The notes beneath the pieces are model-generated. The model had not been told where the DNA came from. It made no database searches and saw nothing but the letters and a program-made list of their open reading frames with translations. Positions 4,620 to 62,328 of a DNA stretch of 64,000 nucleotides are shown in pieces. The translations under genes and the position numbers were made by a program. Source of the stretch: Clostridium sp. 'deep sea' (lineage in GTDB: Bacteria > Bacillota > UBA994 > PWPR01); NCBI RefSeq assembly GCF_014931565.1, contig NZ_CP063353.1, forward strand, positions 496,001 to 560,000, read 5' to 3'. Positions within the stretch are counted from its first letter, which is position 1. The number at the start of each line of letters is the position of its first letter.

Positions 4620-5251
4620 TAAATACGTTTAAAACAATTAAAACTGAAGTCCACTTTAAAAATAAAGTGGGCTTATGCCGTTTTTATGGCAGTGCTTCAC
4701 CAGCAACAACGGTTGAAGAAGCAAACAAGTTTATTCAAAAAATAAGAGATTTATATCCCGATGCAACGCATCATGTTTGGGCTTATAAAATTGGAATTAA
4801 TGAAAATACTATACTTAGGTATAGTGATGATGGCGAACCTGCTAATTCATCTGGTCCCCCTGTATCTAAAGCAATCGAGGGTAATGATTTAACTAATATA
4901 GCTGTTGTTATTACTCGCTATTATGGTGGTGTTAATCAAGGAGTTGGTGGTTTAATACGAGCCTATGGAAGAACGGCTTCTAAAACTATTTCTGAAACAA
5001 AGATTATTGAAAATGAAGCTTTTCAAATAGTGGAGGTTAAGCCAGTAGAGTATAATCAGTTGGGTGATGTAATTCATCATGTTGAAAAATTAAAAGGCTC
5101 TATTAAAAATATTGTTTATGATGCCAATGTAAAAATTATAGCATTGTTAAAGCCCCAAGATATTGACAAGTTTAAAACGTTAATAAGAGACTTAACTAGA
5201 GGTGTAGCAGAAATTAGTTTAGGAGAATTTGTATGGCAAGAGATAAAATAG
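4616..5251 (+). CDS. YigZ/IMPACT-family protein (UPF0029)
   Basis: Conserved 211-residue cytosolic protein of the YigZ/YvyE family, related to eukaryotic IMPACT; biochemical role not settled. The signature block is clear: FYGSASPATTVEEA, HHVWAYKIG, YSDDGEPANSSGPPVSKAI and ITRYYGGVNQGVGGLIRAYG, followed by a C-terminal ferredoxin-like DUF1949-type domain. It overlaps rarA by 4 nt and mnmA by 19 nt, so the three are almost certainly one transcript. Confidence 0.9.
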   Translation: MINTFKTIKTEVHFKNKVGLCRFYGSASPATTVEEANKFIQKIRDLYPDATHHVWAYKIGINENTILRYSDDGEPANSSGPPVSKAIEGNDLTNIAVVITRYYGGVNQGVGGLIRAYGRTASKTISETKIIENEAFQIVEVKPVEYNQLGDVIHHVEKLKGSIKNIVYDANVKIIALLKPQDIDKFKTLIRDLTRGVAEISLGEFVWQEIK

Positions 5252-6285: not shown

Positions 6286-6380
6286 GGGTTGGGCTTGCCT
6301 ATGGCTTCGCGGGGTGGATATTTCACCTTGTGAAATATGGTGTGGGTAACCCTCTAGGGTTACGGTTTGGGCTAGCGCGG
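6286..6380. repeat. Array of variable short palindromes with GGTGTGG-type linkers (array 1)
   Basis: GC-richer than its surroundings. Perfect hairpins such as ATATTTCAC-ctt-GTGAAATAT (6318-6338) and GTAACCCT-ct-AGGGTTAC (6346-6363) are separated by near-identical 7-mers (GGTGTGG at 6339, GGTTTGG at 6364, and GGGTGG just before the first). The palindrome sequence varies while the linker is kept. The array follows mnmA directly and may end its transcript. Array 2 at 7351 uses the same linker. Confidence 0.65.
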
Positions 6381-6657
6381 AAGTAAATGACAATAGATTA
6401 TTGAGTAACCATAGGGATATAACATTATTTTATTAATGATATATTCCTTTTTATTTTATATAAAAATTGCATTTAATAAACTATAAAAATAGTAAAGCTG
6501 GTCATAACGAAATTGATTAAAATAAATAGTGAAGAATAAACATTCAATTATAAAATTGAAATTTAGCTGATTTTTACAAGTGTTACTAAAATATTATTAT
6601 TCTGAGTATTAAAGCAAAGGGGCACGGTTATACTATTCAAAAACGGAATGAAACAAA
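6381..6657. other. AT-rich intergenic stretch upstream of the PRC-barrel gene
   Basis: Remainder of a 372-base gap between mnmA and the PRC-barrel gene. It is AT-rich with no open frame of note and no RNA structure I recognise. It presumably holds the promoter of the next gene, but I cannot place it with confidence. Confidence 0.4.
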
Positions 6658-7176
6658 ATGAAGAGAATTAAAGATATTCTTAATTTGCCAGTTATTGCAT
6701 TAGATACTGGTCAAAAAATTGGTAGTGTTATAGATGTTATATATAGTGTGTCTCAGCGTAGATTAATAGGTTTGTTAATAGAAAAAGTTGCTTTAATAAA
6801 CTCCAAACTGGTTATTACGCCTGAAAACATTATTAATATTGGTAACGATACTGTAACTATTACCTCAAATAATGCCTTATATAAACCTAGCTCGATTCCT
6901 GATGTTTATCAAGCAATGGCAGAACAGGGATTTAATAATCAAAGATTAATCAGTAGGGCTGGTGATGAATTAGGTATAATAGATGATTTAGTTATTGATG
7001 AAAATAGTGGGATATTAGTAGCGTTAGATATTAGTGGTGGTATTATTTCTGATTTAATTTATGGTAGAAAACGAATAGAACTCCCAAACAGCTTCTCTCT
7101 AAGTAAATCTAATTGTATTTTACAAAAGGGAGTAAAAGATGAAAGCTTGCTTAACGACTTGTCCGATATGTGGTAG
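6658..7176 (+). CDS. PRC-barrel domain protein
   Basis: 172 residues with two PRC-barrel repeats: one beginning MKRIKDILNLPVIALDTGQKIGSVIDV and a second near LISRAGDELGIIDDLVIDENSGILVALDIS. PRC barrels occur in RimM, reaction-centre H subunits and YlmC/YmxH-type sporulation-associated proteins; the exact role here is unknown. The ribosome binding site is weak (GGAATG, 10 nt before the ATG). Its last 38 bases overlap the next small gene in another frame. Confidence 0.75.
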   Translation: MKRIKDILNLPVIALDTGQKIGSVIDVIYSVSQRRLIGLLIEKVALINSKLVITPENIINIGNDTVTITSNNALYKPSSIPDVYQAMAEQGFNNQRLISRAGDELGIIDDLVIDENSGILVALDISGGIISDLIYGRKRIELPNSFSLSKSNCILQKGVKDESLLNDLSDMW

Positions 7177-7351
7177 TAAAGCAGTTGGTAGAGTTGCCAA
7201 TAAACAGTTTTACTGTTCGGATTGTTTTAATGAAATTAATGTATCCAAAGAAGACTATCATGTATATGCAGTACTTGAAGATGGTACCTTAGAATTAAGA
7301 ACATTATCTGAGGCAAAGTATTTATTCCAAGTAGCAGTAACCAACTCATAG
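7139..7351 (+). CDS. Small zinc-ribbon protein, function unknown
   Basis: 70-residue product with two Cys pairs, CPICG near the N-terminus and YCSDCF about 18 residues later, a typical zinc-ribbon spacing, followed by an acidic tail. I do not recognise the family. It overlaps the end of the PRC-barrel gene by 38 nt, but AAAGGGAG sits at proper spacing before its ATG, which argues that it is real and translationally coupled. It could act in nucleic-acid or protein binding. Confidence 0.6.
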   Translation: MKACLTTCPICGSKAVGRVANKQFYCSDCFNEINVSKEDYHVYAVLEDGTLELRTLSEAKYLFQVAVTNS

Positions 7352-7487
7352 AAGGGGTCGCTAAGCGACCCCTTCGGTGTGGATTCGTGCAAAGGTATCT
7401 TATTATTACTTAAAATGTATTTGCACTCATGGTTTGGATGCTACACGTTGTGTAGCACGGTGTGGGTTCGCTTTGCTCACGGTGTGG
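7351..7487. repeat. Array of variable short palindromes with GGTGTGG-type linkers (array 2)
   Basis: Starts with an 11-bp perfect hairpin, GAAGGGGTCGC-taa-GCGACCCCTTC (7351-7375), then GGTGTGG (7376), a wider inverted repeat built on GTGCAAA/TTTGCAC, GGTTTGG (7431), ATGCTACAC-gtt-GTGTAGCAC (7438-7458), GGTGTGG (7459), a short GTTCGCTTTGCTCAC element and GGTGTGG (7481). The first hairpin lies at the stop codon of the zinc-ribbon gene and may act as a terminator. Same linker as array 1 at 6286, different palindromes. Confidence 0.7.
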
Positions 7488-7574
7488 ACTGTGTGGAATT
7501 TAAGTATGATTAAACTATTAACTTAGTTAAAACTGTTCCAGTAAAACTTGATAAAAATAGAATTGAGTAAAAAG

Positions 7575-8651
7575 ATGATTAAAATTTCTAGTCAAAAGTG
7601 GATATTAGCTATTCTTAGTTTTATTTTAGGGGTAGTGACTTTATTATGGTGGCATTATAATTCTCAAACGATAAATGGAGTTTTATATCCTTTATTGTTT
7701 AGTTTTATATGTGCTTATTTGCTGAACCAACCGGTAAAAAGACTTGAGCACAGAGTGGGTAATAGAAATAATGCTGTTATTATTGTTTTTTCTTTAACAA
7801 TTGTAACAATATTATTAGTATTATTTATTACTTTGCCTGTTCTAATTAATGACTTAACACGTATGGTTACCGGTTTGCCTCATCAAATGCAAGAATTTCA
7901 AGTTGCTATAGATAAAATAAATCAATTAGCATCGAAAATATCACCAGAGTACAGTAATTTATCGCATACAATTTTACAAAAGGCTACCGAATACTGGCAA
8001 ACACTAGTATGGGATATTTTTATTAAGCTTACTTCGGATTTTGAAAATCTTTTAAAAAAACTAACTATAATCATATATGTACCTATCCTTATCTTCTTTA
8101 TTTTAAAGGATTTTGAGAAACTCAAAAAAGCTATAAAAATAAATTTACCAAGAAGCAAAACAGCTAAAATTAGCTACTTAAAACGAAGACTCAACACTAT
8201 TTTTTTTGGTTGGATTAAAGGTCAAATAATAATATGTTCTATTATTGTAGTGTTAATTTATCTAGGACTGATATTTATTGGTTTAGAGCAAAAATTATTT
8301 TTAGCCTTATTTAGTGGTTTTACGAATTTAATACCTTACTTTGGTCCTATAATAGGACTACTACCAGCTGTAGCTACAGCATTTTCACAAGATTCAAGCA
8401 TGGTATTTAAAGTTATTTTATTGTATACTTTAACTCAGCAGATAGAGAGTAATATTATTTCTCCAAAAATATTTGGTGACCGAGTGGGTTTATCACCCGC
8501 TTGGATATTGATAGCGTTGATAGTTGGTGGCAAAGTAGGGGGTATTTTGGGCTTAATTTTAGCTGTGCCTTTAGCTGGAATCATTAAAGCAGTACTTGAA
8601 TATTTTGGGGGGAGAAAAATTAGATACATATCAGAGGAGGAATTACTATGA
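7575..8651 (+). CDS. AI-2E family transporter (PerM/YtvI-like)
   Basis: Multi-pass inner-membrane protein of the AI-2 exporter superfamily; members include autoinducer-2 exporters and Na+/H+ antiporters, so the substrate is open. About 358 residues with hydrophobic segments near the N-terminus, a long soluble helical loop (about residues 95-190) and the conserved late block FSGFTNLIPYFGPIIGLLPA followed by the final hydrophobic segments. The frame also opens at TTG 7548 and TTG 7563; none has a strong ribosome binding site, so I chose the ATG. Its stop overlaps the alaS start (ATGA). Confidence 0.85.
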   Translation: MIKISSQKWILAILSFILGVVTLLWWHYNSQTINGVLYPLLFSFICAYLLNQPVKRLEHRVGNRNNAVIIVFSLTIVTILLVLFITLPVLINDLTRMVTGLPHQMQEFQVAIDKINQLASKISPEYSNLSHTILQKATEYWQTLVWDIFIKLTSDFENLLKKLTIIIYVPILIFFILKDFEKLKKAIKINLPRSKTAKISYLKRRLNTIFFGWIKGQIIICSIIVVLIYLGLIFIGLEQKLFLALFSGFTNLIPYFGPIIGLLPAVATAFSQDSSMVFKVILLYTLTQQIESNIISPKIFGDRVGLSPAWILIALIVGGKVGGILGLILAVPLAGIIKAVLEYFGGRKIRYISEEELL

Positions 8652-48713: not shown

Positions 48714-48736
48714 AGATTCAAGAATGAATTATAAAC

Positions 48737-48784
48737 AATATCAAGATAAAGGGTAAGGATATTTTTACCCTTTATCTTGATATT
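48737..48784 (+). terminator. Long perfect hairpin after pfkA
   Basis: A 20-bp perfect stem, 48737-48756 with 48765-48784, with an 8-nt loop. The stem is unusually long; no strong T-run follows, so it may also protect the mRNA 3' end. Confidence 0.7.
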
Positions 48785-48820
48785 ATGTAAAACATAATAT
48801 CTCCATAGAACTATATTATA

Positions 48821-48955: not shown

Positions 48956-50038
48956 ATGAGTTTTAATTATATTGAGCGAAAACGGAAGCTTCCTTATATG
49001 GGGACACTTTTTGTTAGTAAAGGTCAAAAGGTTAATTGTACTGATATAATTGGTGAAATGAACTACTATCCTGGTATGGTTAAAAAAATTAATATATCAA
49101 AACAACTAGCAATAAAACCAGAAAAAATAAATAGCGTTTTGACTGTAAAAAAAGGAGACCTAGTTAAGTTAGGAGAAATTTTAGCATTTAATACTCAATG
49201 GTTTAAAGATCAAATTGTTGTGAGTTCAGACAATGGTATTATAGGTATGGTATCAAAATATTTAGGAATATTATATTTAAGAAAATTAACTAAATTTAAT
49301 TCAGATAAGTATGAAGTACATAATGTTGAGCAAATTTTAGGGGTATCGCCTAAAATCGCAGAGAAATCTATCTCAATAAAAGTAGGTCAGGCTGTTTCCC
49401 CAGGACAAATAATAGCTAGTATTATACATAAAAATAATAATATGTGTTTGAACAGTATAACAACTAATATGTTTGGAACTGTAACAGACATAAATGATAA
49501 TATAATTAAAATTAAAAATACACAAATAAGCAAATATTTAAAATCTTATTTATCAGGAGAAGTTATATGTATTGATGAAAATTATTCAGTAACAATAAGG
49601 TCTAAGGTAATTAGAATTACTGGTAATTATGGTATTGGGGGAGAAAAGTGTGGTGTTCTAAAAGTCACTAATAAAAAAATATTAACATCAGACGATATTT
49701 TACCATCAGATAATGGAAAAATAATATTAACTAGAGGCTATATAAGTAAATCGGCTATCTTAAAAGCAGCCGAAACTAATGTTACTGCTATAATAGGGTC
49801 TAGCAGTGATTTATCAATAATAAGAAATTATGTGGGTAGTAATTTTATACCTAGCATAACAGGCGCAGAAGATGTAGCAACAGGATTAATTTTGATTAAT
49901 GGCTTTGGTCATAGTTTAATAAAGAGAACAATATTTGACTTATTAAGCAAGTTTGAAGGTAACAATATTGCACTTAATGGTACTACTCACATAAGAGCAG
50001 GAGCTATACGACCAGAAGTTCTTATCTTTAAAGATTAG
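48956..50038 (+). CDS. Conserved hypothetical protein with barrel-sandwich/KOW-like repeats
   Basis: 360 residues. Several short beta repeats with V-K-x-G-x-x-V-x-x-G spacing (VKKGDLVKLGEILAFN, IKVGQAVSPGQIIASI) look like biotinyl-lipoyl or barrel-sandwich modules. The C-terminal half, IGGEKCGVLKV, SITGAEDVATGLILINGFG and LNGTTHIRAGAIRPEVLI, is a conserved block I associate with uncharacterised proteins encoded next to GlmL-like genes. No catalytic motif recognised. Followed 18 nt later by another unknown gene, so the two likely act together. Cytosolic. Confidence 0.6.
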   Translation: MSFNYIERKRKLPYMGTLFVSKGQKVNCTDIIGEMNYYPGMVKKINISKQLAIKPEKINSVLTVKKGDLVKLGEILAFNTQWFKDQIVVSSDNGIIGMVSKYLGILYLRKLTKFNSDKYEVHNVEQILGVSPKIAEKSISIKVGQAVSPGQIIASIIHKNNNMCLNSITTNMFGTVTDINDNIIKIKNTQISKYLKSYLSGEVICIDENYSVTIRSKVIRITGNYGIGGEKCGVLKVTNKKILTSDDILPSDNGKIILTRGYISKSAILKAAETNVTAIIGSSSDLSIIRNYVGSNFIPSITGAEDVATGLILINGFGHSLIKRTIFDLLSKFEGNNIALNGTTHIRAGAIRPEVLIFKD

Positions 50039-50056
50039 GTTAGGAGTTAAATAATT

Positions 50057-51025
50057 ATGACCAATAGTGTAATAACTTATATAGAAAATAAAAAAGAATT
50101 TTATGATAAGTACAAAAATATATTACCTATTAAAAATAGAAAAAGCATCATAAATAAAATCATAAATGTCAATAAATTAAATAACATTGATGTTATGGAG
50201 TTAAATATAACTAAGTGGATAAAGAATGTTAATGACAAATTTTACTCAACTATACCTATTTTAAATCCCGAAAATACTTCAAATTTAAATAATTTATTTA
50301 AAGATATAGCTACGACCGTTTCAAAAGAATCAAAATATATTATTAATGAATTAGCAAGCAATACTGATGTTTCTATTCATGGAATTTTATGCCACATAGT
50401 ATTACTTAACTTGTGGCAAAGAATATATGCATTAAATAATAAAAATGAATCTGGTGGTAGTTTAATTATTATAAATAATCCAGATAATTGCAATATATTA
50501 ACTAACGATGTAATAAGTATAAATCATAATAAACTATTATTATATTGGAATAATAATCTGCAGCAAAATAGTAATGTTATCTCTAAATTATTTACAAACA
50601 AGTATACTATAAAAATGATACGTACGTTAGATAATAAAGGGTTTATTATACCTAATGGAGGAATGGAAGAACCGTTTATAGAGTTAAGACTAGCTAAACC
50701 TATTCGCTTAAATGGTAGTTTAGTACCATCAATTAAAATAACTATTCAAGATATAAATTATAGAGAGATTAAATCCATTAAGAAAGAGCTACAATGCCTT
50801 ACTCGTATCGGTAATAAGTACCTACCTGATATTAAGAAAATCATTTTAGATAATAAGAGTGATATATTTTACAATGCTAAGTATTTGAGTAACTGCGATA
50901 TAATCCAAGCTGGATACTATGTATGGTGTTATTCTATTTTTCAGCAATGGACTAAGACTAAAGTTATAAGTAATTTAAAACCTGTAATTAATATATTTAG
51001 TGAAAATTATAAGAGTATTTTTTAA
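50057..51025 (+). CDS. Hypothetical protein, Asn/Ile/Lys-rich
   Basis: 322 residues, no family recognised. Very rich in Asn, Ile and Lys, matching the lower GC of this stretch. No signal peptide or membrane segment. The middle holds IIINNPDNCNILTNDVISIN and a Gly-containing turn FIIPNGGMEEPFIELRLAKP. It follows the barrel-sandwich gene by 18 nt and is probably its operon partner. Confidence 0.55.
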   Translation: MTNSVITYIENKKEFYDKYKNILPIKNRKSIINKIINVNKLNNIDVMELNITKWIKNVNDKFYSTIPILNPENTSNLNNLFKDIATTVSKESKYIINELASNTDVSIHGILCHIVLLNLWQRIYALNNKNESGGSLIIINNPDNCNILTNDVISINHNKLLLYWNNNLQQNSNVISKLFTNKYTIKMIRTLDNKGFIIPNGGMEEPFIELRLAKPIRLNGSLVPSIKITIQDINYREIKSIKKELQCLTRIGNKYLPDIKKIILDNKSDIFYNAKYLSNCDIIQAGYYVWCYSIFQQWTKTKVISNLKPVINIFSENYKSIF

Positions 51026-51286: not shown

Positions 51287-51316
51287 TTTACAATTTATAG
51301 CATATAGAGTTATAAT
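51287..51316 (+). promoter_or_regulatory. Promoter of precursor peptide 1
   Basis: TTTACA (51287-51292), 18-bp spacer, TATAAT (51311-51316), then the AAAGGAGGTG ribosome binding site 21 bases before the ATG is reached. Confidence 0.65.
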
Positions 51317-51336
51317 ATAGTAAAGGAGGTGTAAAC

Positions 51337-51432
51337 ATGAAATTTATTGTTAAGCCTAAACCAGTTAACAAAGATTATGAGCCTTGGTGCCCAACATTTT
51401 GTCCATGTCGTTGGCCTAACAGAATGGTTTAA
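51337..51432 (+). CDS. Putative RiPP precursor peptide 1 (3 Cys)
   Basis: 31 residues. It opens MKFIVKPKPVNKDYEP and ends in a Cys/Trp/Pro-rich core, WCPTFCPCRWPNRMV, with Cys18, Cys22 and Cys24. A near-perfect ribosome binding site (AAAGGAGGTG) precedes the ATG. A terminator-like hairpin and then a radical SAM/SPASM gene follow, the arrangement of a peptide substrate and its maturase. The start resembles the two other small peptides in this locus. In outline it recalls clostridial Clo7bot or CLI_3235-type Cys-rich peptides, which I cannot confirm. Likely modification: Cys-based crosslinks such as thioethers. Confidence 0.7.
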   Translation: MKFIVKPKPVNKDYEPWCPTFCPCRWPNRMV

Positions 51433-51478
51433 TTAATTAGTAGTGTAAATAAAAATACATTTACTTAATATAAGTACT

Positions 51479-51512
51479 ATAACTCGTTAAAAATAGGACG
51501 AGTTATTTTTTC
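51479..51512 (+). terminator. Terminator/attenuator between peptide 1 and its radical SAM gene
   Basis: ATAACTCGT (51479-51487) and ACGAGTTAT (51498-51506) with a T-run. Partial read-through would give much more peptide mRNA than enzyme mRNA. Confidence 0.8.
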
Positions 51513-51561
51513 TAAATATAAGTAAACTCATAAATTGAATAGAATTAATATGGGGGTTAAA

Positions 51562-52851
51562 ATGAAAGTTTCGAAGTTTAATTTTTATTATCCATTGCCC
51601 AATCAAGATATTTTAATTTATAATACTGCTACTAACTCACTGGCCGTAATTGAAGAAGAAAATTTTACTTATATAAAAGATAAAGCAAATAAAAATGTAA
51701 TAATAGAGGATCAAGAACTACTTAATAATTTATTATTAGGTGGCTTTGTAGTTGAAAATAGTGTAAACGAACTCGATTTACTAAAGTTAAAGCTATTAGA
51801 ATCTCGTTTTGATAAAAGAGGTTTTAGCTTAACTATAGCACCTACATTAGACTGTGACTTCGAATGTATTTACTGCTATGAAAAAAATAATCAAATCAAC
51901 ACTTATATGTCTTTAAAAACCCAAAATCAATTAATGAATTTTATACAGAATAGATTAAGAGGTTTAGAGAAATTTAAAATATCCTGGTATGGAGGAGAGC
52001 CTTTACTAGCAATGGATATTATTGAAAATCTTAGTAATAAAATAATTAAAATTTGTAGAGAGCGACATATAGAGTATTCAGCTAGTATAGTTACCAATGG
52101 CTATAGTTTAACAGCAGAAATTGCCCAAAAACTAAAAAATTTTGCTATTAATAAGGTTCAAATAACAATTGATGGTCCTAAAGATACCCATAATCTTCGT
52201 CGGCCACTTAAAAATGGAGGACCAACCTTTGAGAAAATACTAGAAAATATTAAGAATGTATGTGACATACTTACAGTCGCCATTAGAATAAATGTAGATA
52301 AAAAGAACATTGAGCAATTTGATGAGGTATTAGATATATTAGTTAAAAACAAATTACAGAGTAAAATACAAGTTTACTTAGGTTTTGTTGACGATGCTAA
52401 TAACTGTTATTCACCAGCTAAATGTCTTTCTTCAAATAAATTTTTTAAACTTAACTATGAAACAAACAAGAAAATTAGAGCCAAAAACTTTATGAATACT
52501 AAAAAAGTTTACCCTGAGCTAGTAAATAATTATTGTGGAGCTGACCATATTGCTCATTATGTAGTTGGACCAACAGGTCTTTTATATAAGTGTGTAAATG
52601 ATATTGGAATCCGTAATAAAGCTGTTGATAGTGTTTTTTATAATTCAAGTAATAAATATAATATTTCTTTATACAATGCCTACATGTTAAATATGCCTAC
52701 TGAAGACCCTGTGTGCAGTAAATGTAATCTACTTCCCATATGTATGGGCGGGTGTCCACACACTAAAATTAATAGTAAAAAAAGTAGCTGCTCAGAATAT
52801 AAGTATAACCTTGAGAACTACTTAAAGCAGTACGCACAAGACTTTATCTAA
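51562..52851 (+). CDS. Radical SAM/SPASM peptide maturase 1
   Basis: 429 residues. An N-terminal recognition-like region (about 1-85, MKVSKFNFYYPLPNQDILIYN) leads to the radical SAM core with CDFECIYC (Cys98, 102, 105 binding the SAM [4Fe-4S]), SWYGGEPLLA and VTNGYSL. The C-terminal SPASM domain has CGADHIAHYVVGPTGLLYKC, CSKCNLLPICMGGCPH and a final CSEYKYNLE, enough Cys for two auxiliary clusters. Closely related to maturases 2 and 3 downstream. Probably modifies peptide 1. The start is ATG 51562, which aligns with the MKLSKYNF start of its paralogues; the longest frame runs from TTG 51535. Confidence 0.88.
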   Translation: MKVSKFNFYYPLPNQDILIYNTATNSLAVIEEENFTYIKDKANKNVIIEDQELLNNLLLGGFVVENSVNELDLLKLKLLESRFDKRGFSLTIAPTLDCDFECIYCYEKNNQINTYMSLKTQNQLMNFIQNRLRGLEKFKISWYGGEPLLAMDIIENLSNKIIKICRERHIEYSASIVTNGYSLTAEIAQKLKNFAINKVQITIDGPKDTHNLRRPLKNGGPTFEKILENIKNVCDILTVAIRINVDKKNIEQFDEVLDILVKNKLQSKIQVYLGFVDDANNCYSPAKCLSSNKFFKLNYETNKKIRAKNFMNTKKVYPELVNNYCGADHIAHYVVGPTGLLYKCVNDIGIRNKAVDSVFYNSSNKYNISLYNAYMLNMPTEDPVCSKCNLLPICMGGCPHTKINSKKSSCSEYKYNLENYLKQYAQDFI

Positions 52852-52891
52852 GTAGACAAAAAGAACAACAAGCATGTTAAATATACATATA

Positions 52892-52924
52892 TCGACAATA
52901 GTAGAGTCCAGTAAATGGTATAAT
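52892..52924 (+). promoter_or_regulatory. TCGACA element and extended -10 upstream of the ABC transporter gene
   Basis: ATATATCGACA (TCGACA at 52892-52897), 21-bp spacer, TGGTATAAT (TATAAT at 52919-52924). The same TCGACA-21-TATAAT layout precedes peptide 2. The spacer is too long for an ordinary -35, so TCGACA may be an activator site helped by the extended -10. Confidence 0.45.
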
Positions 52925-53005
52925 GGATTATAATATCTCTGCTTAGGAAGCATATATTAATTTATATTTATTTTTAACTAGCCTAAAGATTAAATTACAG
53001 AGAAG

Positions 53006-54673
53006 GTGTTTAATATAGAAATTATAAAGTATATTTATCCGTATATTAAAAAGCATAAATGGAAATTTGCATTTTTAGTATCACTTAATGTTTTTAGCTT
53101 TTTTGTAGCTATGCTAATACCCACGTTAGGTGGTAAATACATAGACTTGCTAAATAAATTAACCTCAGTTAATACTATAATAAGGTTTTCTGTATATATG
53201 TGTTTATTATTATTTTTTGATATTGTTTTAAACTTTATAAAAAGGATAACTTTAATTAAGCTAGGTGCTAATATTTCATTTGATATTAACTATGACGTTA
53301 TTGATCATATTAAAAAGTTGCCTTTAAAAGAATTAAATGGTTATGATTCAGTATATTTAAACCAGAGAATAAATTCTGATGCTAATATTTTAGCCTCATT
53401 TGCATTAGAAAAATGTGTAAATACAGTTTTTCAAGTATTCTATTTTATAGGGTCAGTTATTATTCTTTTTAGGGTAAGCCTACAAATAACCTTTGTTTTA
53501 TTAGCAGTAATACCGTTTTTTATCGTTAATTATATTTACTTTAGAAAAAAGCTATATAGCACCAATAAACTTATGAAAGAATCTGGTAATAAGTTTTTTT
53601 CAGACATGAATGAGCAGTTGTTTAATATTAAACTGATTAAAACAAATTCATGGTTTAGTATACTGGGAAATAAATTAAAAAGAAGCTATCATTTATTCTA
53701 TGAAAATTTAATAAGACACCATAAATTAACGTATGCTTTTTCAGGATTAGGATCAATTGGTAGCAATACAGGTAAGGTAATAGTGTTCTTAATAGGTGGT
53801 ATCCAGGTTATAAATAGTAAAATAACCATAGGTGACTTTACTATGATTAATAGCTATTTTGTTAAGATATTAGGGGCGGTACAGACATTTTTAGGATTTG
53901 GTGTTAGTTATCAAGATACCTTGGTGTCTTATAATCGTTTATTAGAGCTTCTTAATAAGCAAAAAGAGCATAATGGAGTTGAGTCTTTAGAACATATAGA
54001 TACTATAGAAATTAAAAATGCGAGCTTTAATTATGATAATGAAAGTGAAATAATAAGTAATTTTAATTATACTTTTGAAAAGGGTAAAGTGTACACTATA
54101 CTTGGTGATAATGGAACAGGAAAAAGTACTTTATTTAGTTTAATTCTAGGTCTTTATATCGATGACTATAAAGGAAATATTACTTATAACAATAAGAATA
54201 TTAAAGATCTTGACTTATACGAAATTAGAAAAAACTTCTTTGGAGTAACTGAGCAAGAGCCAATGTTATTTAAGGGCAGTATATTAAGCAATATTACCTT
54301 TGGTTTGGATAATGTTGATAGCGAATTTATCACTAAAATATGTTCTATACTAAGTATAGATAGTTTTATAAACAAACATGGACAAGGTTTAGATTTAGAA
54401 TTAGAAGAACGCTCAAAAAATATTTCAGGTGGAGAAAAACAAAAGTTATCATTAATAAGAACATTCATAAAAGAAGCTAGTGTATTATTGTTAGATGAAC
54501 CTATATCAGCTTTAGATAGCACTAGCATATTACTATTAAAGAACTATCTTCAAGAAATAAAGCATAATAAAATTATTATTATCATCACTCATAATTTAGA
54601 GATAATTGATATTTCTGATGAAATTATAGATTTAAACAAGCTTAAAGAAAAAAGACTATCATTAGCCCAATGA
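53006..54673 (+). CDS. ABC exporter (fused membrane and ATPase domains)
   Basis: 555 residues: a six-helix exporter membrane domain (about 15-300) followed by an ATPase with Walker A LGDNGTGKST (about 369-378), signature NISGGEKQKLSLIR and Walker B ASVLLLDEPISALDS. There is no N-terminal C39 peptidase domain, so it would export already cut peptides or leave cutting to another enzyme. Its position between the first and second peptide/radical SAM pairs makes it the likely exporter of the modified peptides. GTG start with a weak ribosome binding site, so the exact start is uncertain. Confidence 0.85.
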   Translation: MFNIEIIKYIYPYIKKHKWKFAFLVSLNVFSFFVAMLIPTLGGKYIDLLNKLTSVNTIIRFSVYMCLLLFFDIVLNFIKRITLIKLGANISFDINYDVIDHIKKLPLKELNGYDSVYLNQRINSDANILASFALEKCVNTVFQVFYFIGSVIILFRVSLQITFVLLAVIPFFIVNYIYFRKKLYSTNKLMKESGNKFFSDMNEQLFNIKLIKTNSWFSILGNKLKRSYHLFYENLIRHHKLTYAFSGLGSIGSNTGKVIVFLIGGIQVINSKITIGDFTMINSYFVKILGAVQTFLGFGVSYQDTLVSYNRLLELLNKQKEHNGVESLEHIDTIEIKNASFNYDNESEIISNFNYTFEKGKVYTILGDNGTGKSTLFSLILGLYIDDYKGNITYNNKNIKDLDLYEIRKNFFGVTEQEPMLFKGSILSNITFGLDNVDSEFITKICSILSIDSFINKHGQGLDLELEERSKNISGGEKQKLSLIRTFIKEASVLLLDEPISALDSTSILLLKNYLQEIKHNKIIIIITHNLEIIDISDEIIDLNKLKEKRLSLAQ

Positions 54674-54700
54674 TTTCTTTAATGATTATTATTAAATAAT

Positions 54701-54728
54701 AGGTCACGTAAGCTAGCTTAAGTGACCT
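54701..54728. terminator. Bidirectional terminator-like hairpin
   Basis: AGGTCAC-g-TAAGC-ta-GCTTA-a-GTGACCT forms a nearly continuous stem between the convergent ABC transporter and TtcA-type genes. Confidence 0.65.
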
Positions 54729-54753
54729 TGATAATAACAATACCAATAATTTA

Positions 54754-55482
54754 TTAGTATCTCTTATTCCAAAAAGACTTTAAAGCAGCAAAAATTCTTA
54801 AAGGAATATGTGAATCATATTCAGCTTGTTGTAATAAAAGATTTTTAATATACTGACGTTTTGTAAAACCGTCAGCAGGGCAAAATTTTTGGCTTGTTAC
54901 TGGTAAATTCAAGTTCTTAGATAATGTTAAAGTTACATTTTCTCTTATATACACAAGTGGTCGAACCATTGTAATTTTCTGTCTATCTAAATAAGCAGAT
55001 GGGTAAAAACAATCAATTTTGCCGGAAAAAAACATGCTCATCAAAAGAGTTTCAACTGCATCATCAAGGTGATGACCAAGTGCCATAACATTAAAACCTT
55101 CTCTACTAGCAACATTCATTAAAGCACCATTTCTCATACGTGAACATAAAGAGCAAGGATTACTTTCTTGACGATGATCAAAAACAATTTTTGCAATATC
55201 TGTTTTTTCAATGTGTAACACAATATTATTAGTTTTGCAAAACTCTATAATATTGCTCCAATCTGCCTGTTTAGTAGACCAACCTAAATCGATAATAATT
55301 GCATGTAAATTATACTTAATTGGCAAAATAGCTTGTAACTCTTTTAGAGCATACAAACAGGTAAGGCTATCTTTTCCTCCCGACACTGCTACAGCTAGTT
55401 TATCACCATCTTTTATCATATTGAAGTCACCAATGGCTCTTTTTACTTTAATCAATAAATCTTTGCTTAGTTTTTTACTCAT
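54754..55482 (-). CDS. TtcA-family tRNA 2-thiocytidine synthetase-like protein
   Basis: 242 residues of the PP-loop ATPase family: AVSGGKDSLTCLYALKEL (ATP pyrophosphatase loop), Cys pair in PCSLCSRMRNGAL, MALGHHLDDAVETLLM and a C-terminal FCPADG. TtcA-type enzymes thiolate C32 of tRNA with an FeS cluster. Shorter than E. coli TtcA (about 311) but typical for Clostridia. AAGGA lies 7 nt before the ATG. It is the only minus-strand gene within the RiPP locus; a sulfur role in peptide modification is conceivable but unsupported. Confidence 0.82.
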   Translation of the reverse strand: MSKKLSKDLLIKVKRAIGDFNMIKDGDKLAVAVSGGKDSLTCLYALKELQAILPIKYNLHAIIIDLGWSTKQADWSNIIEFCKTNNIVLHIEKTDIAKIVFDHRQESNPCSLCSRMRNGALMNVASREGFNVMALGHHLDDAVETLLMSMFFSGKIDCFYPSAYLDRQKITMVRPLVYIRENVTLTLSKNLNLPVTSQKFCPADGFTKRQYIKNLLLQQAEYDSHIPLRIFAALKSFWNKRY

Positions 55483-55578
55483 AGTTCGTCCTTAAAACTT
55501 TTTTATCATTATAACACTAAATCGAGGTTATCTATAAAAAAAATCCAGACCATATAAATCATAAGTATTATACAAAAA

Positions 55579-55611
55579 TCGACACAGTTGTATACCATAA
55601 ATTGGTATAAT
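55579..55611 (+). promoter_or_regulatory. TCGACA element and extended -10 upstream of peptide 2
   Basis: TCGACA (55579-55584), 21-bp spacer, TGGTATAAT (TATAAT 55606-55611). The spacer includes a 7-bp inverted repeat, TATACCA-taaat-TGGTATA, that overlaps the -10 and could be an operator. Confidence 0.45.
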
Positions 55612-55647
55612 AAAAATAGACAAAATGGTGATTAGGAGGTGTATTTT

Positions 55648-55734
55648 ATGTTATTTTTAGTAAACACAAAAAAAGCAAAAGAGAGACAATACTGTTGCGA
55701 TCCATATGCAAGATTTTGTGAATTTGTTAACTAG
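55648..55734 (+). CDS. Putative RiPP precursor peptide 2 (3 Cys)
   Basis: 28 residues. It opens MLFLVNTKKAKERQ and ends YCCDPYARFCEFVN, with Cys16, Cys17 and Cys24. A strong TTAGGAGGTG ribosome binding site precedes the ATG. As with peptide 1, a terminator and then a radical SAM/SPASM gene follow. The N-terminal M-x-F-[I/L]-V motif is shared with peptide 1, while the Cys spacing is different (adjacent pair plus one). Confidence 0.65.
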   Translation: MLFLVNTKKAKERQYCCDPYARFCEFVN

Positions 55735-55780
55735 AGTTACCTAATACTCAGTAAAATAGTTACAGACAATATTTAAACCG

Positions 55781-55811
55781 ACCTTGTTTAAGTAAACAAG
55801 GTTTTTTTTTT
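55781..55811 (+). terminator. Terminator/attenuator between peptide 2 and its radical SAM gene
   Basis: ACCTTGTTT-aagt-AAACAAGGT with a run of nine or more T. The remaining part of this 315-base gap (to 56049) is AT-rich and holds the TCGACA element at 55932. Confidence 0.85.
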
Positions 55812-55931
55812 GCAACTAAAAACTTATAAGTAAAGTATAAATGCTTTTTTTTTTTATTTATAGAGAACTTCATTTAACAAATTATTAAAGAAATATGAAT
55901 ATTACTAAATATTGATAAATAACCACATATA

Positions 55932-55960
55932 TCGACATAATTTTGATCATAGTGTATGAT
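55932..55960 (+). promoter_or_regulatory. TCGACA element upstream of radical SAM gene 2
   Basis: CATATATCGACA (TCGACA 55932-55937) followed after 17 bp by TATGAT (55955-55960) or after 21 bp by ATATAT. With the 17-bp reading it would be a near-normal sigma-A promoter; the upstream ATATATCGACA matches that of the ABC gene. Confidence 0.4.
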
Positions 55961-56049
55961 ATATTTATACTAATAATAGTAATAATAACCATTTTACTAT
56001 TATTAAATAAATATGTTAAACAACACTATTAAATTAAGTGGAGGTAAAA

Positions 56050-57387
56050 ATGAAACTATCTAAATACAATTTTCATTATAAATTAAATGAAAATACTGAA
56101 GAAACTCTTATTTATAACTCTAGAACTAACGCCTTGGCACTTATTGAGAATGATAATTTTAAGTATTTAAGTGGTGAATCAGATAATATTGTTGTAGAAG
56201 ACAAAGAATTAAGAAAAAATCTGTTACATGGTGGATTTCTACTTGATTCAAATGTAAATGAGCTTGATTTAATTAAAATTAAAATGTTAAAAGCAAGATT
56301 CAATAATGATAGTTTAGGTTTAACTATAGCACCTACTTTGGCATGTAATTTTAAATGTATCTATTGTTATGAAAAAGAGAATTTAAATAGCTCTTACATG
56401 ACAGAAGAAGTTATTCAAGCTATGTTAGAGTTTATTAAAAAGCGTATAGAAATAATATCTAATTTAGGTATCACTTGGTATGGAGGAGAGCCGTTACTTG
56501 CATTAGATACTATAGAATACTTAAGTAAAGAAATCATTAAAATGTGTGAAGAAAATAATGTTCATTATAATGCCGGTATTATAACAAATGGCTATAGTTT
56601 TACTAAAGAAGTAGCTCAAAAATTAAAAGACCTTAAAGTTGAACACGCACAAATTACGCTAGATGGCACAGAAGAAATACATAATAAAAGAAGACCTTTG
56701 GTTAATGGAAGAGAAACATTTGATACAATTATTCAAAATATTAATGATACTGCTGATATTATGAAGATATCTGTACGTGTTAATACAGATAAGTCTAATA
56801 TTGATAAATTAGACGCATTACTAGATACCTTAATTAGCTATAATCTACATAAGAGAGTTCATGTATATTTAGGTTTTGTAGATAGCATTAATGAGTGTTA
56901 TGCAGACGATAAATGTTTATCTCGTGAGGGATTTTCTAAGTTAAACTATAGTGCTGAGAAAAAATTAGTTGAAAAAGGATTTGTTCAGAGTTCTGAATAT
57001 AAATACCCACGTTTATATGCTAATTATTGTGGAGCTGATAATGATGGGGCCTTTGTAGTGGGTCCCAAAGGATATATTTATAAGTGTTATAACGAAATAG
57101 GAGATAGAGATGCTGTTGTAGATAGTATTTTAGACACTGATGAAGAATTTAACTTAGCTTTATATAACAAATATATGTTACATATGCCTGTTGATGACGA
57201 AGTCTGTTCTGAGTGTAAGTTACTGCCTATTTGTATGGGAGGTTGCCCTTACCATAAAATAAGCAAAAATGACAAAAAATGTAGTGAATATAAGTATAGT
57301 CTCGAAGAATATTTAAAAGATACTGCCAAATATATTATTAAAAAAAGAGAATCCGAAATTAATGAAGCAGCAGCCACCAAGTCATAA
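56050..57387 (+). CDS. Radical SAM/SPASM peptide maturase 2
   Basis: 445 residues, paralogue of maturases 1 and 3. N-terminal recognition-like region (MKLSKYNFHYKLNENTEETL), radical SAM Cys motif CNFKCIYC (Cys99, 103, 106), TWYGGEPLLALD, ITNGYSF, then SPASM with YCGADNDGAFVVGPKGYIYK, CSECKLLPICMGGCPY and CSEYKYSLEEY. Ends with a charged tail of about 20 residues absent from maturase 1. Likely acts on peptide 2. GGAGG at 56040 favours ATG 56050. Confidence 0.88.
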   Translation: MKLSKYNFHYKLNENTEETLIYNSRTNALALIENDNFKYLSGESDNIVVEDKELRKNLLHGGFLLDSNVNELDLIKIKMLKARFNNDSLGLTIAPTLACNFKCIYCYEKENLNSSYMTEEVIQAMLEFIKKRIEIISNLGITWYGGEPLLALDTIEYLSKEIIKMCEENNVHYNAGIITNGYSFTKEVAQKLKDLKVEHAQITLDGTEEIHNKRRPLVNGRETFDTIIQNINDTADIMKISVRVNTDKSNIDKLDALLDTLISYNLHKRVHVYLGFVDSINECYADDKCLSREGFSKLNYSAEKKLVEKGFVQSSEYKYPRLYANYCGADNDGAFVVGPKGYIYKCYNEIGDRDAVVDSILDTDEEFNLALYNKYMLHMPVDDEVCSECKLLPICMGGCPYHKISKNDKKCSEYKYSLEEYLKDTAKYIIKKRESEINEAAATKS

Positions 57388-57412
57388 GTTACATTATTAA
57401 GTTTTACTATAT

Positions 57413-57447
57413 AAAAACAACTACACTTGGCTCTGTAGTTGTTTTTT
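57413..57447 (+). terminator. Intrinsic terminator after radical SAM gene 2
   Basis: AAAAACAACTACA and TGTAGTTGTTTTT form a 13-bp stem with an 8-nt loop and T-run. Confidence 0.85.
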
Positions 57448-57581
57448 AATATTAAATATTATATAACCAAAAAAAATATTTATAAAGAATGATATTGGAA
57501 ATAGCATTTTTGAGTCACTAAAAAAGTGATTCAAGTCTTAAAATTAATTTTAAGAGAAACAAACTCAAAGGGGGTGTTAAA

Positions 57582-57713
57582 ATGAGATTTATCTTTAATG
57601 CAAGTGAAAACGCTGATACAGAGTGTACAAGGTATTGTGAGTATTTATACTGTGATGACAAAGCCTTTTTGTGTGTTCCTAAAGTATGTAGACCTTTACT
57701 AAAGGCTATGTAA
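57582..57713 (+). CDS. Putative RiPP precursor peptide 3 (5 Cys)
   Basis: 43 residues. It opens MRFIFNASENADTE and continues with five Cys at 15, 19, 24, 31 and 36 (CTRYCEYLYC, then FLCVPKVC), ending RPLLKAM. AAAGGGGGTG precedes the ATG. A hairpin and radical SAM/SPASM gene 3 follow. It shares the M-x-F-I start with the other two peptides but is longer and has more Cys, so the modified product should differ. Confidence 0.65.
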   Translation: MRFIFNASENADTECTRYCEYLYCDDKAFLCVPKVCRPLLKAM

Positions 57714-57736
57714 GTGAAACTAGTTAATCTCACACT

Positions 57737-57766
57737 AAAGGGTCCATTTTTGTAATGGACCCTTTA
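57737..57766 (+). terminator. Hairpin between peptide 3 and its radical SAM gene
   Basis: AAAGGGTCCATT (57737-57748) pairs with AATGGACCCTTT (57754-57765). There is no long T-run, so it may be an attenuator or an mRNA-stabilising hairpin rather than a full terminator. Confidence 0.65.
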
Positions 57767-57799
57767 ACAGTTAAGTAGAATTAGTTAAAGGAGGATATT

Positions 57800-59107
57800 A
57801 TGAAGTTATCTAAGTATAATTTTTTTTACACTCTATCTGAAAACAGTAGTGAAACCCTTATATATAATTCGAGAACTAATGCATTAGCATTTATAGAAAA
57901 TGATAATTTACAATTCCTTAAAGATAATAGTAACTTAGCAAATATAACAGATTTAGAACTACAAGAAAACTTAAAAAAAGGCGGTTTTGTAATAGCTAAA
58001 GATATAGATGAACTTGATTTAATAAAGTTAAAGCTTTTATCTGCCAGATTTAACACAAATGGTTTGGGATTAACTATAGCTCCTACTTTAGATTGTAACT
58101 TTAGGTGTATATACTGTTATGAAAAAAATAGCTTACACAATACTTTTATGACTAAAGAAACGCAAGATCAAGTCTATAACTTTATTAAGAATCAAGCAAA
58201 TAGTTTAAACTACTTATCTGTAACATGGTACGGGGGAGAGCCGTTATTAGCATTAGATGTTATAGAGACATTAAGTACTAAAATTAAAAGCCTATGTAAG
58301 GATAATAATGTACGCTATTCGTCAGTTATTATAACAAATGGATATAATCTCACCAAAACAACAGCCATTAAGCTTAAAGAGCTTAATGTTAGCTCTGCCC
58401 AGGTTACGCTAGATGGAACTGAAGACATTCATAATTCTCGTAGACCACTTGCTGATGGATCAGAAACCTTTAACACTATCATTAATAATGTTAAAGATTG
58501 TGCTGATATATTAGCTATAACTATTAGAATTAATACAGATAAAGAGAATGCCCATAAAACAGATGAACTATTAGATATTTTAGAGCAACATAATCTTAAA
58601 GGAAGAGTAGGGGTTTACTTAGGATTTGTAGATACCATAAATGACTGTTACGAACATAGTAAGTGTTTTACTAGAAAAGGATCTTCAAAGCTCAATTTTG
58701 TTAATGAAATGAAACTAATAAAACGAGGGTTTAATGAAAATATTACTCACAGATATCCAAGGCTTTATGCTAACTCCTGTGGAGCAGATTGCATTAGTTC
58801 TTTTGTGATAGCACCGGATGGTTTGTTATATAAATGTTGGAATGATATAGGCATTAAGGAATATGCTGTAGGACATATTAATGGTAAAAAAACGACAGAA
58901 AAATATAATAAAGTATTATTTAACAAATACTTAACTTATATAGCACCAGACGACCCAACTTGTAGTAAGTGCAAGCTCTTGCCAATATGTATGGGAGGCT
59001 GTCCTAATATACGTATTAAAAACAACAAACATTCTTGTTCAGAGTATATGTATAATTTAGAGCAGTATCTTGTTGAATGTGCCAGATCAGCCGAAGCTAA
59101 AAATTAA
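57800..59107 (+). CDS. Radical SAM/SPASM peptide maturase 3
   Basis: 435 residues, paralogue of the two upstream maturases. N-terminal MKLSKYNFFYTLSENSSETL, radical SAM motif CNFRCIYC (Cys99, 103, 106), TWYGGEPLLALD, ITNGYNL, SPASM with SCGADCISSFVIAPDGLLYK, CSKCKLLPICMGGCPN and CSEYMYNLEQY. It has an extra Cys just after CGAD. Likely acts on peptide 3. AAAGGAGGA gives a strong ribosome binding site and a clear ATG start. Confidence 0.88.
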   Translation: MKLSKYNFFYTLSENSSETLIYNSRTNALAFIENDNLQFLKDNSNLANITDLELQENLKKGGFVIAKDIDELDLIKLKLLSARFNTNGLGLTIAPTLDCNFRCIYCYEKNSLHNTFMTKETQDQVYNFIKNQANSLNYLSVTWYGGEPLLALDVIETLSTKIKSLCKDNNVRYSSVIITNGYNLTKTTAIKLKELNVSSAQVTLDGTEDIHNSRRPLADGSETFNTIINNVKDCADILAITIRINTDKENAHKTDELLDILEQHNLKGRVGVYLGFVDTINDCYEHSKCFTRKGSSKLNFVNEMKLIKRGFNENITHRYPRLYANSCGADCISSFVIAPDGLLYKCWNDIGIKEYAVGHINGKKTTEKYNKVLFNKYLTYIAPDDPTCSKCKLLPICMGGCPNIRIKNNKHSCSEYMYNLEQYLVECARSAEAKN

Positions 59108-59395: not shown

Positions 59396-60283
59396 TTATT
59401 TTCTCAATTTATCAATAAGAGGATTACTGGCTGCTAGTTTTTTAATTTGATCTGCATTAGTATGAGCATATATCTGTGTAGTGACAACAGAATTATGTCC
59501 TAAAAACTCTTTAAGCTCTAGTAAAGAACCTTCATTATATAATAAAGTAGCACAGGTATGTCTTAACTTATGAGGCGATATTTTTTTTGACACACCACTT
59601 AATTCGGCATATTTTTTTATAATTAATTGAATCGCCCTTACGGAGATTCGAGTTTTTCTTACTGATAGAAATAGGGCAGTAGTTGATACTGCTGGTCGTA
59701 CTGTAAGGTACTGCTTAATAGCAGCTATTACTAACTCATTTATAGGAACTAAACGCTCTTTATTACCTTTACCTATAACGTTTATAAAGCCATCATGAAG
59801 ATTTATATTCTCCAAATTAATATTTGCAAGCTCACTAACACGTAAACCACAAAAAATAAAAATCATAGTCATGGCATAGTCTCGTTCTTTAAATTTACCA
59901 CCAATAACCCTTAACAATATTTGAGACTCTTCGAGAGTTAAATAGATAGGCAAACGCTTTTCGATTTTTGGTTCTCTTATGCGCTCAGCTGGTGATTTAT
60001 CCAAATAATGTCTCTCTAGTGCATACCTAAAATATGCCTTTAAACACCTTAATTTTCTAGCAGTTGCATATGGAGAATTATTTAGTATTTTTTTAGTAAA
60101 TCCAACAAATTTAATAATATGTATATCCGTTATGTCTTTAATGGAATTTACATTTAGCTCATCGTGCATATAATCATTAAAGATACTTAAATCCGAGATG
60201 TAGTTTTTAATTGTTAGTGGTGAATAATTAAGTACTGACTCCAGGTAGGCTATATATTCATCGCTTAAGTCACTTATTTTCAC
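59396..60283 (-). CDS. Xer-type tyrosine recombinase
   Basis: 295 residues, the length of XerC/XerD. N-terminal SAM-like domain (YIAYLESVLNYSPLTIKNYI) and a catalytic domain with Arg in FCGLRVSELANI, Lys in GKGNKERLVP, HKLRHTCATLLYNEG (His, Arg), LGHNSVVTTQIYAHT (His and the nucleophile Tyr). All catalytic residues are present. Starts at GTG with GGGGG upstream. A 28-bp dif-like palindrome lies 14 bp before the start codon. It could be the chromosome-dimer recombinase or belong to an integrated element. Confidence 0.88.
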   Translation of the reverse strand: MKISDLSDEYIAYLESVLNYSPLTIKNYISDLSIFNDYMHDELNVNSIKDITDIHIIKFVGFTKKILNNSPYATARKLRCLKAYFRYALERHYLDKSPAERIREPKIEKRLPIYLTLEESQILLRVIGGKFKERDYAMTMIFIFCGLRVSELANINLENINLHDGFINVIGKGNKERLVPINELVIAAIKQYLTVRPAVSTTALFLSVRKTRISVRAIQLIIKKYAELSGVSKKISPHKLRHTCATLLYNEGSLLELKEFLGHNSVVTTQIYAHTNADQIKKLAASNPLIDKLRK

Positions 60284-60855: not shown

Positions 60856-61578
60856 TTACTTATCAATAACATATCTAAAAACACTATTGAGGTAATCACC
60901 AAAATCGTAGTCGTTAATTTTTTTAATAAGTGAGTTTTTAAGAAGGGTTTCATTCTTAAGTCCGTAATGACGTTTGCTTATATAATTGTTAATGTCTTTT
61001 ACTATGTTACTAATCTTTGAAAGATCTGCATATTTAATAGAGTCTCTACTCTCTGGTAGATTTGTTAAGTCTTTATATTCTAGTTTATGTAATTTTGCAC
61101 TTTTAAACATGTTAATTATTCTGCTATGAAAATTAGCTATAGTTCTTGAGTCTACTTTATTGTGCAGTTTTTTGTATTCGTTATAAACTCTGTTGGAATG
61201 CGAAAAACCAATTGTTTTTAGGTGATTAGCTAAAGCCGTGGCCTTATTTGAGATTGAGTTATCATAAGCCTTTTCTAGGGCTGATAATTGAGTATCTTTG
61301 TTTGAGCTAGTACTGTTTAAGAGTCTATCTTTAATTAAAAAATATCTTTCTGTAAAATTTGCTATACTTAGACTTGCATCATTAAAAAATGCTTCATTAA
61401 GTTCATAACCATAATTACTATAATAAGTGTAAAAACTGTTTTTATTATGGCTATCAAAACTTTTTATATTGTTATCATAATCCATTTGTTGAAGTGGTTT
61501 ATTTACTACACTGGTTTTATGAGAATTAGCTTGTTTAAACTCTAATATTATATTGGGGTTATTGCTATCAATTCTCAT
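60856..61578 (-). CDS. Hypothetical protein
   Basis: 240 residues, no family recognised. Helical and Asn/Ser/Lys-rich, no membrane segment or Cys cluster; ENAF-like adhesion motifs are absent. GGGGAGATACA precedes the ATG. It starts 18 nt after the ATPase gene on the same strand and is probably co-transcribed with it. Confidence 0.6.
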   Translation of the reverse strand: MRIDSNNPNIILEFKQANSHKTSVVNKPLQQMDYDNNIKSFDSHNKNSFYTYYSNYGYELNEAFFNDASLSIANFTERYFLIKDRLLNSTSSNKDTQLSALEKAYDNSISNKATALANHLKTIGFSHSNRVYNEYKKLHNKVDSRTIANFHSRIINMFKSAKLHKLEYKDLTNLPESRDSIKYADLSKISNIVKDINNYISKRHYGLKNETLLKNSLIKKINDYDFGDYLNSVFRYVIDK

Positions 61579-61596
61579 TGTATCTCCCCTATCTTA

Positions 61597-62328
61597 TTAA
61601 TTAGTGATTTCTAACTCTTTAAGCATTCTTTTTGGGTTATTTAAAAAATACCTAGTTATATTATAGTGTTCGGTATCCTGGTAGCTTTTTTCATAAATTC
61701 CTTCTTCGTCAATTTCATATAAGGTTGCATTGGGGTAAGCCATAATAATTGGTGAATGAGTTGCTATAATGAGTTGGGAGTTCTTTTTAACTAACTTGTG
61801 AATAATACGCAGTAAAGCCATTTGGCCTGTTGGAGATAAGGCAGATTCCGGCTCATCAAATATATATATACCATTACCGAATAATCTATTATGCATTAAT
61901 GCCAAGAAACTCTCTCCATGAGACTGTGAGTGTAATGATTTACCTCCATATGCAGCTAATAAATCAGTATCTACTCGCTCTATTTCTGTAGCCAAATTGT
62001 AAAAGCTCTCCGCTCTAAAAAAATACCCATCCTTAGCAAAATTGGTACTCTTTACTAAGCGCAAATATTTATGTAGATTCGAATGACTACTAAAGGTAGA
62101 AAATCTAAAATTTTTAGATCCTCCTTCAGCATTAAAACCACACACTATAGCAATAGCCTCTAATAAAGTAGACTTTCCTGATCCATTATCGCCTATAATA
62201 AATGTCACTGAATTATTAGTATTTAAATAATTTAAATTCTTAACTGCAGATAAGCTAAATGGATATGTACTATAATCACGTATTATTTCTTTCTTTAGTT
62301 CTATGCCTTTTAAAAATATGTTATCCAT
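61597..62328 (-). CDS. Small AAA/ABC-type ATPase (COG3910-like)
   Basis: 243 residues. Walker A in FIIGDNGSGKSTLLEAIAI (about 41-59), a signature-like SHGESFLALMHNRL and Walker B in GIYIFDEPESALSPTGQMAL, then IIATHSPIIMAYP. It has no coiled coil and no membrane or nuclease domain, which fits the small soluble predicted ATPases of COG3910 rather than SMC or RecF. Substrate unknown. Pairs with the hypothetical gene downstream; a phage-defence or toxin role cannot be judged. Confidence 0.78.
   Translation of the reverse strand: MDNIFLKGIELKKEIIRDYSTYPFSLSAVKNLNYLNTNNSVTFIIGDNGSGKSTLLEAIAIVCGFNAEGGSKNFRFSTFSSHSNLHKYLRLVKSTNFAKDGYFFRAESFYNLATEIERVDTDLLAAYGGKSLHSQSHGESFLALMHNRLFGNGIYIFDEPESALSPTGQMALLRIIHKLVKKNSQLIIATHSPIIMAYPNATLYEIDEEGIYEKSYQDTEHYNITRYFLNNPKRMLKELEITN

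Follow-up and report, generated by a model that had tools for sequence, protein, structure and literature searches.

Within a 64,000-nucleotide window of the Clostridium sp. 'deep sea' chromosome (NZ_CP063353.1, positions 496,001 to 560,000 of the forward strand), positions 51287 to 59107 hold three short cysteine-bearing frames (P1, P2, and P3), each followed by a gene for a radical S-adenosylmethionine (SAM)/SPASM enzyme (E1, E2, and E3), together with one ATP-binding cassette (ABC) exporter. This is a candidate locus for ribosomally synthesized and post-translationally modified peptides (RiPPs). A preliminary description of the window had placed all of these genes correctly, along with the cysteine counts of 3, 3, and 5 and the strong Shine-Dalgarno sequences (SDs) ahead of the small frames. 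Positions below are those of the window unless a locus or the chromosome is named, and the three pairs, their stem-loops, the promoter-like site, and the exporter lie on its forward strand.

P1 (51337-51432, 31 amino acids, 3 Cys, MKFIVKPKPVNKDYEPWCPTFCPCRWPNRMV) begins with the leader MKFIVKP, which is shared with relatives, and is preceded by the SD AAAGGAGGTG and by a promoter-like site at 51287-51316. This site, TTTACA-18-TATAAT, matches 11 of 12 consensus positions and comes from a scan that overall showed no enrichment over shuffled sequences. P2 (55648-55734, 28 amino acids, 3 Cys, leader MLFLVNT, MLFLVNTKKAKERQYCCDPYARFCEFVN) follows the SD TAGGAGGTG, and P3 (57582-57713, 43 amino acids, 5 Cys, leader MRFIFNA, MRFIFNASENADTECTRYCEYLYCDDKAFLCVPKVCRPLLKAM) follows the SD AAAGGGGGTG. 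Between 46 and 62 kb of the window, these are the only frames that combine an SD, a leader-type start, and at least 2 cysteines. Peptide and enzyme are separated by 129 (P1/E1), 315 (P2/E2), and 86 bases (P3/E3), and each gap contains a stem-loop. A consensus scan identified the first two, at 51479-51506 (-11.0 kcal/mol, z -3.4) and 55780-55803 (-10.7 kcal/mol, z -4.2), as terminator-like with a T tail, and the third, at 57736-57766 (-19.5 kcal/mol, z -5.5), is strong with little T tail. For all three stem-loops, 0 of 200 shuffles were as stable. The peptides had been described as lying directly upstream of the enzymes, which is right as to order, with these gaps and stem-loops in between.

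E1 (51562-52851, 429 amino acids), E2 (56050-57387, 445 amino acids), and E3 (57800-59107, 435 amino acids) are paralogs, as had been proposed, with pairwise identities of 50-56%. All carry CX3CX2C, WYGGEPLLA, CMGGCP, and a complete 7-Cys SPASM pattern, and all score above the cut-off for PF04055, giving the radical SAM core and SPASM domain of a RiPP maturase. Searches against RiPP and radical SAM family models, which the preliminary description had called for, returned the Clo7bot maturase TIGR04334 as the best NCBIfam model, aligned over its full length at 335, 372, and 354 bits for E1, E2, and E3, below its cut-off of 600. TIGR04463 (268-293 bits, cut-off 525) and CefB (NF038107, 215-245 bits, cut-off 600) follow, nearly full length and far under their cut-offs. 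SCIFF and subtilosin, which had served as the initial comparison, are rejected as the nearest kind, since the SCIFF maturase model TIGR03974 scores only 57-83 bits (cut-off 425) and Clo7bot is nearer.

At least 12 further short cysteine-bearing frames with the same type of leader are found elsewhere on the 3.83-Mb chromosome, at five loci beside unrelated genes, for a total of at least 15 precursors at six loci for 3 enzymes. These are A1 MKFLLEPNSRGTYYFIDHSKICGVHTDKCPYWQTAC, A2 MTYLVDPSKKNADINYDTKVKLSDICIVFDRVCKVVAC, and A3 MVFLMDPGKATGRNTLDTDLSKVCGVHTNRCPYYITLC near 410 kb; O1 MKYLINSSKKVCGFWDCGDLLPPKFLGVCDIRCWVFFPGND at 603 kb; B1 MIFLVNPNSIVTMSCNIYDPPCTQLCTNLGGGCPRRGSEEHPQ and B2 MKFLVLPNNVVTPCCEGYTPCYALSGGGGDGDPLYPY at 779-780 kb; C1 MKFLVNPKDSILALGCRNYLNCTSYGGCRSYHCYNFSY and C2 MIFLVNPCKLQVEEPVYPCSKYFHCSNVWGCVDFTCISYL near 3183 kb; and D1 MNYIIEPQNNKATLGCDTLYCTNKESCNIVCTGYNNMNLRP, D2 MLFLVKAQIYDDVKDCVRCTGVNHCYDRCFTK, D3 MTFLVSPLNKQPIDLPDCDPWTCPKFCLVCPRNS, and D4 MHFFIKPNSKSIDDDISHCNKFSCVQVCSAFLQDIRLY near 3676 kb. 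The list derives from leader-pattern searches and is a lower bound; the search of the organism's own genome required an SD and a leader-type start, with the motif defined by P1-P3, made no demand on cysteine content, and recovered P1-P3 along with the others. Neighbors of the remote frames include genes for a D-glutamate cyclase, an ArsR-type regulator, an acetyltransferase, an IS200-type transposase, and others, and no homologous maturase was found near any of them. The chromosome contains no further close homolog of E1-E3, its other radical SAM proteins matching at 23-30% over parts of their length. Several remote frames, among them A1, A3, B1, B2, and C2, are followed by terminator-like hairpins. 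With at least 12 remote precursors sharing the leader, the earlier expectation of three products from one locus falls short in scope.

When the leader pattern was searched without a demand for SD or cysteine, it gave 51 matches, a number equal to that of a reversed control. Eleven of the 51 open a frame of fewer than 45 amino acids with at least 3 cysteines; all 11 have an SD, and none of the other examined matches has one. With both strands of a whole genome counted, 0.29 frames with an SD, a leader-type start, and at least 3 cysteines would be expected under a third-order Markov null. The same pattern yields one qualifying frame in the same-genus genome G001, the known one adjoining its enzyme, and no qualifying frame among the matches in a same-family genome that lacks the maturase. 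Between the two same-genus genomes searched, the number of precursors found is 15 versus 1.

The 15 precursors are alike at their starts and diverge thereafter. Identity averages 67% over their first 21 bases and 28-34% over the stretches that follow, which bears out the initial impression that the cores barely resemble each other. The leader is mostly of the form M-x-F/Y-I/L-V-x-P, about seven conserved residues, and cysteine is the sole feature that the 15 cores and the cores of relatives all share. No curated peptide family was matched above its cut-off in a scan of P1-P3 and ten of the remote peptides (all except D2 and O1). The Clo7bot peptide model TIGR04333 (cut-off 31 bits) aligned from residue 1 with P1 (9.0 bits) and D1 (12.7 bits) and gave no match to the other scanned peptides. 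At one remote locus (L223, 8149-8856), the cores of A1 SKICGVHTDKCPYWQTAC and A3 SKVCGVHTNRCPYYITLC are nearly the same, with A2 and its unlike core between them; of 18 codons compared, 4 differ synonymously and 6 change the residue, a stretch too short for a firm verdict. Next to and between D1 and D2 (L154, 6790-9190) are an IS200/REP-type transposase and GGGGACTGTCCC repeats, which offer a possible route of dispersal.

The association of leader and enzyme extends to other lineages. Cysteine-rich frames with a leader-type start, or nearly so, adjoin an enzyme relative at eight other loci (L104, L105, L106, L107, L108, L110, L115, and L010), usually with one to four precursors per enzyme and mostly with 4-10 cysteines. 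The relatives' peptides begin with M-x-[FWYM]-[ILV]-[VIL]-x-[PG], which P1-P3 nearly match. The preliminary description had named the absence of such frames beside homologous enzymes as a ground for rejecting it; they were looked for and are present in several lineages, including the same genus. Five related maturases (L109, L112, L113, L114, and L009) have no leader-type cysteine frame within 3-4 kb, and their precursors may also be remote. At L111 (genome G242, 4967-8149), a related maturase gene is apparently split in two by an inserted transposase-like gene pair, and a leader-type cysteine frame is still there beside the broken gene (4750-4896).

The single enzyme of G001 is accompanied by a single peptide, MRFLVEPMTGFLFNTSRHTDCDARCTYLYCYKPRFIP, located at L104:2459-2572, in which HTDCDARCTYLYC resembles DTECTRYCEYLYC of P3. 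Genes of the two families that flank pairs 2 and 3, PP-loop ATPase and tyrosine recombinase, also flank the G001 locus, one to each side. In the window these are a TtcA-like PP-loop ATPase at 54754-55482, on the opposite strand to the pairs, which cuts off pair 1 and the exporter from pairs 2 and 3, and a XerC-like recombinase at 59396-60283. The claim that each peptide has its own enzyme holds for position within the three pairs and does not carry further, since the P3-like peptide of G001 lies downstream of its enzyme and most of the remote precursors lack an enzyme of their own.

Phylogenetic analysis placed E1-E3 and the G001 enzyme in one clade (support 98/96 and 96/94 in two trees). Within this clade, E2 with G001, E2 with E3, and a clade of E1-E3 are all compatible with tree tests. 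E3 groups with the G001 enzyme at 92/81 in one tree and 76/83 in the other, and the grouping of E2 with G001 has p 0.10. The lineage-specific duplication of gene pairs that had been proposed is not borne out by the tree, the branching order leaving it undecided; from these sequences, either duplication in the present species or loss in the other would be compatible with it.

The exporter (53006-54673, start codon uncertain) lies between pair 1 and pair 2 and has the membrane (PF00664) and ATPase (PF00005) domains of its family; no peptidase domain was seen in it. Among the genomes searched, its closest homologs are exporters beside maturases of G065 (40%) and G069 (39%), and for this reason it looks to be part of the system. 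Two distant relatives have an exporter of this family conserved next to their maturase, and family-wide searches extended around G065 and G069 brought nothing further.

A RiPP reading of these genes is well supported. We consider it probable that the locus serves as the enzymatic center of a RiPP system whose precursors are dispersed, with E1-E3 binding the leader and cross-linking the cores of at least 15 precursors. The enzymes would bind the short N-terminal leader through a domain resembling the RiPP recognition element (RRE). In an AlphaFold2 model of E2, compared with solved structures at full length, residues 7-84 are predicted to form three strands and three helices, with a predicted local distance difference test (pLDDT) score of about 62-79, a beta3-alpha3 arrangement like that of an RRE. 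E1-E3 would then install thioether cross-links in the cysteine-bearing cores, the non-alpha-carbon (ranthipeptide) type being the likeliest, and the twelve precursors at the five other loci would be modified in trans. The stem-loop behind each adjacent precursor would allow peptide message to outnumber enzyme message. The products would be secreted by the ABC exporter and might serve in antagonism or signaling.

Among described systems, Clo7bot (TIGR04333/TIGR04334) is the most similar, with a short cysteine peptide adjoining a SPASM enzyme and the best-scoring maturase family. It differs in that the present enzymes and scanned peptides fall under its cut-offs and that the precursors here are scattered and served by three paralogous maturases. 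By sequence, the present system is a sister group of Clo7bot and not a member of it. Ranthipeptide systems (CteB with thermocellin, PapB with freyrasin) share with the modeled E2 the overall fold, including a putative RRE-like domain at the N-terminus, and with the present system a cysteine-rich substrate; CteB (5why) is the nearest solved structure to E2 both by fold and by sequence. In contrast to those systems, sequence similarity is low and the peptides here have neither the CX3D repeat nor the six-Cys SCIFF core. The link made by CteB is S-Cgamma, from Cys to Thr (PMC11002830), and PapB is promiscuous and accepts cores that differ widely when they follow its leader (PMC9413430). The chemistry of PapB may be related to that of the present enzymes. 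A literature search for OhkG/geopeptide returned only unrelated ophthalmology matches.

In the prochlorosins and synechococsins, few enzymes (ProcM, SyncM) serve many precursors scattered on the chromosome, with a conserved leader and a poorly conserved cysteine-bearing core (PMC10783134). Many remote precursors, few enzymes, a fixed leader, and a variable core are all found here, and the combination of kept leader, free core, and scattered genes points to a prochlorosin-like design. The two differ in that prochlorosins are lanthipeptides with a LanM enzyme and a Nif11-type leader, while the enzymes here are radical SAM/SPASM proteins and the conserved leader stretch is about 7 residues. A more specific proposal is that this is the radical SAM counterpart of the prochlorosins, in which three maturases of overlapping, leader-driven specificity would convert at least 15 hypervariable cysteine peptides into different thioether macrocycles; we hold this to be about evenly balanced between true and false.

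Several observations weigh against a dispersed system with trans-acting enzymes. The leader likeness is partly a matter of ascertainment, as the motif served to find the remote frames (cysteine content was not used), and decay of copied genes could account for the remote frames. Across the 15 cores, no shared rule governs the spacing of the cysteines or the candidate acceptor residues. The nearest characterized enzymes are distant: E1-E3 score 119-125 bits with the PapB model NF047865 (cut-off 340), which together with the SCIFF model represents two characterized ranthipeptide types and not the whole class. Confidence in the E2 model is moderate (pLDDT 71, with the SPASM part below 50), and the exporter was not found in G001 (best match 26%), where the contig ends beside the locus. 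In a simpler arrangement, only the three adjacent enzyme-substrate pairs would work, each dedicated to one product, and the remote frames would be silent relics or have another use. Each enzyme is adjoined by a precursor, identities of 50-56% leave room for separate specificities, and the E3/G001 enzymes and P3/G001 peptides look like a pair kept together (92/81). However, that grouping is not robust in the second tree or against the alternative of E2 with G001, and the remote frames are intact, have SDs, mostly have terminators, and combine a kept leader with a varied core, which is unlike decay. We consider dedicated pairs quite unlikely.

The chemistry could also be another radical SAM modification, such as an aromatic cyclophane, epimerization, or a sactionine, with the cysteines used for disulfides or metal binding. 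The SPASM fold is common to enzymes of many chemistries, and cysteine spacing varies among the cores. The C-terminus of P1, WPN, is a W-x-N triad resembling those found in three-residue cyclophane formers. Yet cysteine is what all the cores have in common, and the nearest models (Clo7bot, TIGR04463, CefB, and PapB) are maturases of cysteine peptides, as is the nearest fold, that of CteB; a different modification therefore seems unlikely to us. Chance alone as the source of the small frames is in line with the lack of any curated family above cut-off, but at least 15 were found against 0.29 expected, the leader type is kept beside homologous enzymes in other lineages, and stem-loops are present, making chance very improbable.

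Nothing indicated that the locus is viral or mobile in origin, with no viral search made, and an Rfam scan returned a tRNA and chance matches and nothing else. Upstream of P1, two adjoining genes at 48956-51025 encode proteins of 360 and 322 amino acids with no assigned function; the former has weak similarity to biotin-lipoyl/RnfC barrel-sandwich domains and the latter no convincing match. Past a phosphofructokinase gene, a near-perfect inverted repeat at 48715-48800, with a chance Rfam microRNA match on both strands, is probably a terminator. On the minus strand at 60859-62328, an AAA/SMC-type ATPase lies next to a 240-amino-acid protein without a Pfam match.

Combinatorial RiPP biosynthesis with chromosome-wide substrates is documented for the prochlorosins. 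If the proposed dispersed system is real, a radical SAM case would show that the strategy of a fixed short leader, a free core, and few enzymes arose with unrelated chemistry. Cluster-centered mining misses most substrates of such a system, since 12 of the 15 precursors are not near a homologous maturase and no scanned one reaches a curated cut-off. The very short leader, with its roughly seven conserved residues, could be a tag for peptide cyclization, and a set of three related enzymes and no fewer than 15 natural substrates would allow the contributions of leader and core to specificity to be gauged.

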